In this document: positions 41,447-48,096 of the stretch, in pieces
Numbering within the stretch: position 1 is the first letter of the stretch
How the letters are laid out: each line of letters begins with the position of its first letter
NCBI GenBank assembly: GCA_947167855.1
Contig: CAMVJR010000005.1
Coordinates: 1-48,192, forward strand
DNA length: 48,192 nt
Source of the DNA: an uncultured Bacteroidales bacterium
Lineage (GTDB): Bacteria > Bacteroidota > Bacteroidia > Bacteroidales > UBA932
Direction: 5' to 3'
Position numbers and translations under genes: made by a program
Notes under the pieces: generated by a model
The model's database searches: none
What the model saw: only the letters and a program-made list of their open reading frames with translations
What the model was told of the DNA's origin: nothing

Positions 41447-41784
41447 CGGCCGTCAGGACACCGAATAAGCCTTTTGGTGTCCGGATGCTTCATTTTCGGC
41501 CGTCAGGACACCGAATGGCGGTTTTGGTGTCCGGATGCTTCATTTTCGGCCGCCGGGACACCGAATGGCGGTTTTGGTGTCCGGATGAGTTTATTTCGGC
41601 CGCTGGGACACCGAATGGGCATTTTGGTGTCCGCACACTTCTTTTTCGGCCGTCAGGACACCGAATGGGCCTTTTGGTGTCCGGATGCTTCATTTTCGGC
41701 CGCCAGGACACCGAATGGGCATTTTGGTGTCCGCACACTTCTTTTTCGGCCGCCGGGACACCGAATGGCGGTTTTGGTGTCCGC
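41447..41784. repeat. Seven-unit array of a 50-bp palindromic repeat
   Basis: Seven units with an exact 50-bp period fill most of the gap between the MMPL and lipoprotein genes. Each unit has a 27-bp palindrome, GGACACCGAA...TTTTGGTGTCC (first 41456-41482, last 41756-41782), and a 23-bp linker of two main types, GGATGCTTCATTTTCGGCCG-like or GCACACTTCTTTTTCGGCCG-like. Linkers are near-identical, so this is not a CRISPR array. Two more units lie at 43284-43360 and two inverted units at 48020-48096. A probable RAYT gene lies between the first two sites. Confidence 0.9.
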
Positions 41785-41844: not shown

Positions 41845-42342
41845 ATGAAAACGATCAAAGCCGTACTTCTTATTGCTGGTCTGCTTGCGCTGGCAGCTTG
41901 TGAAAAATACCCCGTGGAGGGCCTTCAGGGCTCGTGGTGTCCCGTTTATGCCAACGGGTCTTTCGAGAATTCTGTGTATGTCTACACTTACAATGCCCCA
42001 GTTGACGGGGCCGGACGCGTCCCCTATGTGTACGTGAGCAAAACCAATCCCGATGTGAAGTATGATGGATATATGATGGTCCCTTGTCTCCGCTTCTTCA
42101 AGGAGAAGGGTGAGGATGTATACACGTCTTTCTATAAAGACGGCTCTGGGGAAGAATCCGACGAACCGCTTCATTACTACATAAAAGACGGCAAACTCTA
42201 CCGAGAATATCCCTGGAATTACTTGGTTAACGATGACTACTATTACCCCGGCGCCGAATCCGATAAATACTACGAAGCCCCCATTCTCTTCCTGGACAAC
42301 GGTCAAGTCAAAATAGGTGACATCACCTACGAAAGGTACTAG
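41845..42342 (+). CDS. Small lipoprotein, unknown function
   Basis: A 165-residue protein with a signal peptide and lipobox (AGLLALAACEKYPVEG), so Cys20 is probably lipidated. The mature part is rich in Tyr and Asp and likely beta-structured (NSVYVYTYNAPVDGAGRVPYVYVSK, DDYYYPGAESDKYYEAP). I do not recognise the family. It stands alone between the 50-bp repeat array and the convergent RAYT-like gene, which ends three bases after it. Its looser A/T-richer codon use differs from the metabolic genes. Confidence 0.75.
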   Translation: MKTIKAVLLIAGLLALAACEKYPVEGLQGSWCPVYANGSFENSVYVYTYNAPVDGAGRVPYVYVSKTNPDVKYDGYMMVPCLRFFKEKGEDVYTSFYKDGSGEESDEPLHYYIKDGKLYREYPWNYLVNDDYYYPGAESDKYYEAPILFLDNGQVKIGDITYERY

Positions 42343-42344
42343 TG

Positions 42345-43262
42345 TTATTCTGCTTTCGGAAACATCCGGTCCACATCTGCTGCAGGTAAACGAAGTACAT
42401 GTGTTATTTGCCGATTTGAGGAAGCAAGGCGCTGTTTCATCATCTTGGCTGCATTCAAGCGCGCCTCGAGTTCAAGAGTACGGAGATTCTGCCCCTGAAA
42501 CCAGCTGCTGACTATCTGAAAAACTTCTTCGGTTGGAAGCTGAATCTTTTCACCCAGCTTGGCTGCTATCTCCACATCGGCCTCCCCCCTTCGTGTAAGG
42601 AGGGTAAAGTACTGATTGGCGCTGTTAAAAAGGGCTTCCGTTGCGTGATAATCCACAAAACTGCTTCTGAGTATCATTCCATCGCAAACGCGGTAATGAC
42701 TCGGCAAGTCTGTATCATGAGAACGGCAGATAATCCTTTTCTCCCGTCCTCCCACTTTGTCAAACGGAATTCCTTGATTCATGAGCCGCAAGTTCCCGTT
42801 GAAGAACAGACTGGCCGATCCCCATGGATACCCGGTGGGCATACTGTCCAGACGGGCGACATATGCGTTCCGGTCTGTATAAGCGATCCTGTTTCTAAAG
42901 GATTTCAGATCCAGCGTTTCATCTATCCTTATATTCCATTCTTTCAGTGCGGGCTTTTGCAGAGAACGCTGGTATTTCCGTTCATTTTCGTGAAGTATCT
43001 CTGCAAAACAACAGGCCTTATCGAATGATCCTGTGCCCATTATGTGATGATGGCTGTTCATCTGGATATCATCCAAAATCATAAAACCGGACCGGGCCGA
43101 CGCAATGGCAATTAGATTGGTCCCCACTATGAATTCCTCCGGATTATCATACAGTGTCCAGTCCAAATCCTCCGTGGAGATGAAATAATACGGTCCACCG
43201 GCCGCAAATAACCGTTCACACTCCCGTTCCCGGTCCCAGTAATCGTTCTTTTCGTATGCCAT
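42345..43262 (-). CDS. Probable REP-associated tyrosine transposase (RAYT/Y1-like)
   Basis: A 305-residue protein. The segment YYFISTEDLDWTLYDNPEEFIVGTNLIAIA, followed by DIQMNSHHHIMGTG near residue 68-76, resembles the IS200/RAYT Y1 fold, in which two histidines of an HxH motif bind the metal. Candidate catalytic tyrosines are downstream (RKYQRSLQK). The C-terminal half has no match I can name and ends in a helical, DNA-binding-like region (NAAKMMKQRLASSNRQITHVLRL). It begins 20 bases from two 50-bp palindromic units and is preceded across the lipoprotein by seven more, the expected neighbourhood for a RAYT. Confidence 0.55.
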   Translation of the reverse strand: MAYEKNDYWDRERECERLFAAGGPYYFISTEDLDWTLYDNPEEFIVGTNLIAIASARSGFMILDDIQMNSHHHIMGTGSFDKACCFAEILHENERKYQRSLQKPALKEWNIRIDETLDLKSFRNRIAYTDRNAYVARLDSMPTGYPWGSASLFFNGNLRLMNQGIPFDKVGGREKRIICRSHDTDLPSHYRVCDGMILRSSFVDYHATEALFNSANQYFTLLTRRGEADVEIAAKLGEKIQLPTEEVFQIVSSWFQGQNLRTLELEARLNAAKMMKQRLASSNRQITHVLRLPAADVDRMFPKAE

Positions 43263-43283: not shown

Positions 43284-43360
43284 GGGCACCATTTCTCAGT
43301 TTTGGTGTCCGCATGCTTCATTTTCGGCCGCCAGGACACCGAATGGGCATTTTGGTGTCC
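43284..43360. repeat. Two further 50-bp repeat units beside the RAYT-like gene
   Basis: One degenerate palindrome (GGGCACC/GGTGTCC, 43284-43310) and one perfect one (43334-43360) keep the 50-bp spacing. They lie just upstream of the RAYT-like start and before the end of the HHH/barrel gene. Confidence 0.85.
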
Positions 43361-48019: not shown

Positions 48020-48096
48020 GGACACCAAAAGGCTCATTCGGTGTCCCGGCGGCCGAAAATGAAGCATCCGGACACCAAAAGGCTTATTCGGTGTCC
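48020..48096. repeat. Two inverted 50-bp repeat units beside the sigma factor
   Basis: Palindromes at 48020-48046 and 48070-48096 keep the 50-bp period but lie on the opposite strand from the 41.4-43.4 kb units. The linker GAAAATGAAGCATCC is the complement of the common linker. They fill the gap between the sigma factor and the LysM gene. Confidence 0.85.

Follow-up and report, generated by a model that had tools for sequence, protein, structure and literature searches.

Which enzyme family does a 305-residue protein with an HHH motif belong to, and does it act on the palindromes lying beside its gene? These questions arise from a 48,192-nucleotide stretch of DNA (hereafter the window) of an uncultured Bacteroidales bacterium. 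An earlier note made from the sequence alone had described there a divergent RAYT-like protein with an NSHHHIMG segment and an unrecognizable second half, and had suggested either a distinct Bacteroidota RAYT branch or a domesticated enzyme acting on neighboring palindromes. RAYTs are the textbook example of a domesticated transposase; to our knowledge, the way in which they select and propagate their repeats has been worked out only for short members guided by GTAG. The gene and the palindromes of the window are as follows:

42345..43262, minus strand: gene for a RAYT-like Y1 HUH nuclease of 305 aa (intact ORF, family profile, tree, fold, dN/dS)
43044..43052, minus strand: codons of the HUH motif H71-H72-H73 (HHH in the orthologue clade, HxH family-wide)
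42879..42881, minus strand: Y128, the candidate catalytic tyrosine, within IAYTDRN, a motif of the class 2 Y---N type (Y in 82/84 homologues)
42348..42770, minus strand: predicted helical C-terminal domain, approximately residues 165-305, with a possible helix-turn-helix at its end and near-invariant Q285 (conservation, model)
41456..41782, plus strand: tandem array of seven palindromes (GGACACC-13 nt-GGTGTCC), exactly 50 bp from one to the next, on the far side of a small lipoprotein gene
43300..43360, plus strand: half unit (43300-43310) and full palindrome (43334-43360), directly upstream of the gene
48020..48096, minus strand: detached doublet close to the end of the contig, its palindromes spaced by 50 bp

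Family membership, active site and fold

The reading frame starts with the ATG at 43262 and stops at 42345; an alternative in-frame ATG at 43292 would yield 315 aa. NSHHHIMG spans residues 69-76 of the 305-residue protein. Used as a single query, the window protein retrieved no match in Pfam, NCBIfam or PDB sequence searches, nor in a PHROGs search; thus, its relationship to the RAYTs becomes visible only via the family alignment. A profile of 44 family members matches the ISDra2 TnpA in PDB (E 0.003), and individual members are matched by Pfam Y1_Tnp (13 of 44) and by NF047646, the REP-associated tyrosine transposase model (16 of 44, best 1.2e-10), the latter leaving the window protein itself unmatched. 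The Y1/RAYT resemblance claimed by the earlier note is borne out by the AlphaFold model of the window protein (pLDDT 89, pTM 0.75), for which the top Foldseek match in PDB is 4er8, the E. coli RAYT (TnpA_REP) with its REP hairpin (probability 1.00, E 1.4e-3, TM 0.61 on the target). The TnpAs of IS608 and ISDra2 are also among the matches, and none in this PDB search reached E 0.001. The fold evidence is by itself good, not overwhelming; combined with the motifs and the family profiles, the case for a Y1 nuclease of the RAYT type is convincing.

The 44-member alignment contains six invariant residues: M68, H71, H73, Y128, N132 and Q285. Conserved histidines and a catalytic tyrosine, to be looked for according to the earlier note, were indeed found across the family: HxH and the tyrosine, which lies in the expected Y-x-x-x-N helix, are retained in 82 of the 84 distinct homologues, both exceptions being short, truncated ORFs. 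N132 is present in 78 of the 84, and the proline of Y---NP in only a part of them, with the window protein having an alanine after the asparagine. The HHH triplet is present in the window protein as described earlier, but as a variant of HUH particular to the orthologue clade and not as a motif of the family: the middle histidine is conserved only among the close orthologues, and the paralogues mostly display V, L or F at this position, NHVH or NHLH being the majority forms. In a published survey, the residues given for the middle HUH position of class 2 are L, V, I, F, Y or M (PMC6006769), so that a conserved histidine is unusual. In a tree of the core domain, 81 of the 82 full-length members from the genus, along with one divergent member from the source genome, lie on one side of a branch with an SH-aLRT of 92, in agreement with the suggestion of a distinct Bacteroidota RAYT branch.

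The C-terminal half

The second half is indeed not recognizable, as described earlier: searches against Pfam, NCBIfam and PDB sequences retrieve no match for it. Even so, it is conserved across the family with a mean column identity of 47%. It is predicted to form a helical domain (pLDDT 81.5 in the model). In a more distantly related long Y1 protein, belonging to a different family of the phylum, the C-terminal end shows weak matches to HTH_1 and HTH_23 (E ~0.002), and members of the TnpA_Y1 subclass 2.1 carry C-terminal domains of the HTH type (PMC6006769). By analogy, the domain is possibly HTH-like, an assignment that we infer, because the domain searched alone gave no significant fold match or family sequence match.

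Distribution, synteny and selection

A scan of genome contigs recovered 15 orthologues at 58-98% identity, all in Bacteroidales/Bacteroidia assemblies, many of which bear the names of rumen or ruminant samples. More broadly, homologues were found in 22 of 24 genomes of the same genus, at one to nine per genome; at the same cut-off, 16 genomes from other families of the order returned no homologue match. As judged from these sequence searches, the family is genus-restricted, with several paralogues per genome. In the source genome, a protein search detected two additional copies with 24-25% identity to the window protein, and the family profile raised the number of members to eight, two pieces on one contig being counted once. 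The seven further RAYT-like genes (L151-L157) are on contigs C83, C103, C112, C38, C23, C67 and C106 of this genome (G000), and some are so divergent that the profile matches their catalytic domain only.

Pairs within orthologue groups have dN/dS values of 0.04-0.08; a single pair that is more diverged and close to saturation gives 0.13. The intact frame, the 15 orthologues, these values and the six invariant residues establish the ORF containing NSHHHIMG as a real gene under purifying selection. A ComEA/HPRT/Adk locus is common to the orthologues L033, L034, L037 and L038, and L035 shares ComEA/HPRT; the remaining orthologues occupy other loci, away from a ComEA-like neighbor. Genomes of the same genus were also searched for the ComEA locus in its empty state, but all ComEA relatives recovered were distant (36-57% identity).

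A lipoprotein-like ORF (41845-42342, 165 aa) with a lipobox-like N-terminus, LLALAAC, separates the array of the window from the RAYT gene. It is also found in RUG173 (L033) and is absent from L034, in which palindromes and an MMPL-like gene directly follow the RAYT gene; thus, this ORF has been inserted or lost.

Palindrome doublets at a fixed spacing flank about half of the genes

The neighboring palindromes mentioned in the earlier note exist: their pattern is matched 14 times in the window and never in shuffled sequences. The detached doublet at 48020..48096 lies upstream of a gene for an ECF-type sigma factor, with no adjoining RAYT, and folds as a single long imperfect hairpin (z -4.55); the two stretches adjoining the window gene fold unremarkably (z -1.3 and -1.5). 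The rest of the source genome contains only a few related palindromes; two of these, on contig C27, lie 50 bp from each other.

We then compared the 400-bp flanks of 84 homologues from the genus with 354 flanks of 185 other same-genus genes as controls. A repeat was found in 72 of the 167 homologue flanks versus 5 of the 354 control flanks. The best lag was 49-52 bp in 55 of the 72 repeat-bearing flanks and 100-105 bp in 5 more, with only 2 of the 354 control flanks showing a lag of 52 bp (Fisher p ~5e-31 for lags around 51 or twice that value). Counted by gene, the period occurs on at least one side in 41 of 84 and on both sides in 19. The window gene itself scored negative, its array lying more than 400 bp away behind the lipoprotein gene; its addition by hand brings the count to 42 of 84. 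These scans revealed no clear repeat for about half of the homologues. Among related Y1 genes in other families of the phylum, a 52-bp lag was seen at one flank only.

The repeats on the two sides of a gene are related to each other. Upstream and downstream flanks share sequence in 46 of 83 genes, against 1 of 83 mismatched pairs, and the shared blocks are directly oriented in 42 of the 50 decided cases (8 otherwise). Such a block is often 84-100 bp long, corresponding to two palindromes, and may be nearly identical on the two sides, as in L005 (90 bp at 98.9%) and L023 (95 bp at 98.9%). In 11 of the 12 pairs that could be measured, the hairpin centers lie 51-53 bp from each other, and several doublets fold far more stably than shuffled sequences (z -4.6 to -9.2 for the 48-kb doublet of the window, L005, L022 and L026). 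The clearest exception to the spacing of about 51 bp is L012 (G016:C4:197783-198610), which has long arrays with a 74-bp period on both sides. In one group of members (L022, L072 and L079), the two palindromes are separated by a spacer that is near-palindromic in its own right, e.g., GCATTTTAGGCCTATTTTGC.

Private, dispersed and changing copies

The doublets are private to each lineage of the family, in that the palindromes of two homologues are alike mainly when the proteins are above ~60% identical. They also occur away from the genes: palindromes cognate to two other members form gene-free groups of two to four, at 51-52 bp spacing, at 6 of 7 dispersed places examined in two genomes. In a third genome tested, every palindrome copy was local and none dispersed. 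The number of copies per genome is low, tens at most in these genomes, the majority of which are fragmented metagenome assemblies wherein repeats may be collapsed or lost. Classical REP families have hundreds of copies.

Copy number also differs between close relatives at the same locus. RUG173, whose protein is 98% identical to that of the window, has exactly one doublet on each side of the gene; in the window, seven units lie to one side of it and one and a half to the other. Thus, the copy number changed recently. The nuclease may have caused this change, but so may recombination between repeats.

Comparison with known systems

The closest parallels are the RAYT/TnpA_REP systems with REPINs or BIMEs of E. 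coli and Pseudomonas (groups 2 and 3). These share with the window family the Y1 HUH fold and Y---N motif, cognate flanking palindromes with a separate palindrome family for each gene, purifying selection, and dispersed gene-free doublets at a fixed spacing, which are here in low copy number. However, RAYTs of these systems are ~150-165 aa long, compared to ~305 aa with an extra C-terminal domain here; their doublets are inverted rather than direct; the spacing is, for instance, 71 bp in the GI REPIN of P. fluorescens (PMC3116915) as against 50-52 bp; and, unlike them, the window family has several divergent paralogues per genome. By inspection, neither a GT[AG]G foot was evident in the window units and the printed doublets of other members, nor a Trp/Gln guide-reading motif recognizable in the window family; recognition must therefore differ from that of the E. 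coli RAYT. The foot is not universal, being absent also from subclass 2.6 and class 3 (PMC6006769).

With regard to architecture, the TnpA_Y1 subclass 2.1 (RAYT group 1) and the TIRYTs are similar in their length, C-terminal domain, NHxH and Y---N motifs, and a motif of the YPW(S/G)S type following the core, with the TIRYTs additionally having terminal repeats adjoining the gene. In the survey that defined the subclasses, automatic or manual searches found no REP-like sequences beside subclass 2.1, and none were found beside 2.3, the other subclass with long C-terminal domains (PMC6006769); going by this published description, the window family is set apart by palindrome doublets beside about half of its members. 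The TIRYT repeats are terminal inverted repeats, some sharing GGGGWSAS (PMC3733652), whereas those of the window family are palindrome doublets in direct orientation at a fixed spacing. Subclass 2.6 (RAYT group 5) is likewise from Bacteroidetes and has atypical flanking secondary structures lacking the GT[AG]G foot, with copies elsewhere in the genome, but its typical member has 179 aa without the long C-terminal half (PMC6006769). Finally, the TnpAs of the IS200/IS605 group (IS608, ISDra2) share the Y1 HUH fold; in contrast to them, the window family is much longer, shows no sign of IS-like gene movement and has paralogue-specific palindromes. The combination of a long C-terminal domain with cognate repeats, no evident GTAG foot, direct doublets and a fixed spacing of 50-52 bp distinguishes the window family from the RAYTs described in the open-access literature.

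A probable domesticated nuclease and its doublets

We consider it probable that the window gene codes for a domesticated, chromosomal and vertically retained Y1 HUH nuclease of the RAYT type that acts on private REPIN-like doublets. The proposal of a domesticated enzyme acting on neighboring palindromes is thus supported by the cognate flanking doublets and the purifying selection, though the action itself is not proven. Counting against this reading are the missing GTAG foot and guide-reading motif, the low copy number relative to classical REP families, the homologues, about half, for which no clear repeat was seen, and the fragmentation of most assemblies. In the proposed mechanism, the Y1 core would recognize single-stranded hairpins, for example on the lagging-strand template, and cut beside the hairpin via a covalent 5'-phosphotyrosine on Y128, with H71 and H73 holding the metal. 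The basis for this chemistry is the activity of the E. coli RAYT, which cuts and rejoins single-stranded REP DNA (PMC8266576). Strand transfer would then copy or move doublets within the genome, and tandem arrays would thereby grow or shrink. The extra C-terminal domain may help bind or space two adjacent palindromes, a role that could explain the constant 50-52 bp spacing despite the paralogue-specific palindromes.

These features have to be weighed against a gene that moves together with its doublets as an autonomous IS200/IS605-like element, the doublets serving as its ends. The direct and often near-identical doublets on both sides of the genes, as at L005 and L023, and the several paralogues per genome, are what one would expect of such an element. 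Against it, the paralogues of the source genome share only 24-25% identity with the window protein, and the palindromes of different members are dissimilar below ~60% protein identity, so that nothing points to recent copying of the gene; moreover, orthologues are syntenic at the ComEA/HPRT/Adk locus (L033, L034, L037 and L038, with ComEA/HPRT in L035), and purifying selection is strong. In view of the highly divergent paralogues and syntenic orthologues we rejected autonomous mobility of the IS type, and regard this explanation as unlikely.

Similarly improbable is that the palindromes are mainly operators, bound as duplex DNA by the C-terminal domain in autoregulation or chromosome organization, with the nuclease incidental or vestigial. 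Such a function would be compatible with the conservation of that domain, a constant spacing close to five helical turns and the position of the window array in a divergent intergenic region, but it leaves unaccounted for the HUH and tyrosine residues, conserved as strictly as any, and the gene-free dispersed doublets; the HTH assignment it draws on is itself not significant. That ordinary tandem or terminator repeats lie near the gene by chance, unrelated to the protein, appears very improbable. Intergenic DNA of bacteria often contains hairpin repeats, and no repeat was detected for about half of the homologues; however, the excess over the control flanks (72/167 versus 5/354), the concentration of the lag at 50-52 bp, the near absence of the signature around related Y1 genes of other families and the privacy of the palindromes to each paralogue all speak against coincidence.

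Returning to a domesticated nuclease acting on its own doublets, we tentatively suggest a further possibility: the genus as a whole may harbor a RAYT radiation in which each paralogue has co-evolved with a private head-to-tail doublet, its spacing constant at about five DNA turns, and in which the nuclease and the C-terminal domain read this doublet as a two-site ruler. If true, this would be a RAYT/REPIN system with a recognition logic other than the GTAG-guided one. The genus offers dozens of nuclease-palindrome pairs in which the spacing is constant and the palindrome varies, and from whose comparison the recognition code could be worked out. It also opens the question of the purpose of the long C-terminal half, which has so far been linked to REP-less RAYTs.

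A second long Y1 lineage

The phylum contains a second lineage of long Y1 proteins of ~320-350 aa (L147, L149 and L185-L206), which is expanded in another family (f31). Its genes are often near contig ends and are without the 51-bp signature, and the two members scanned show weak C-terminal HTH matches.
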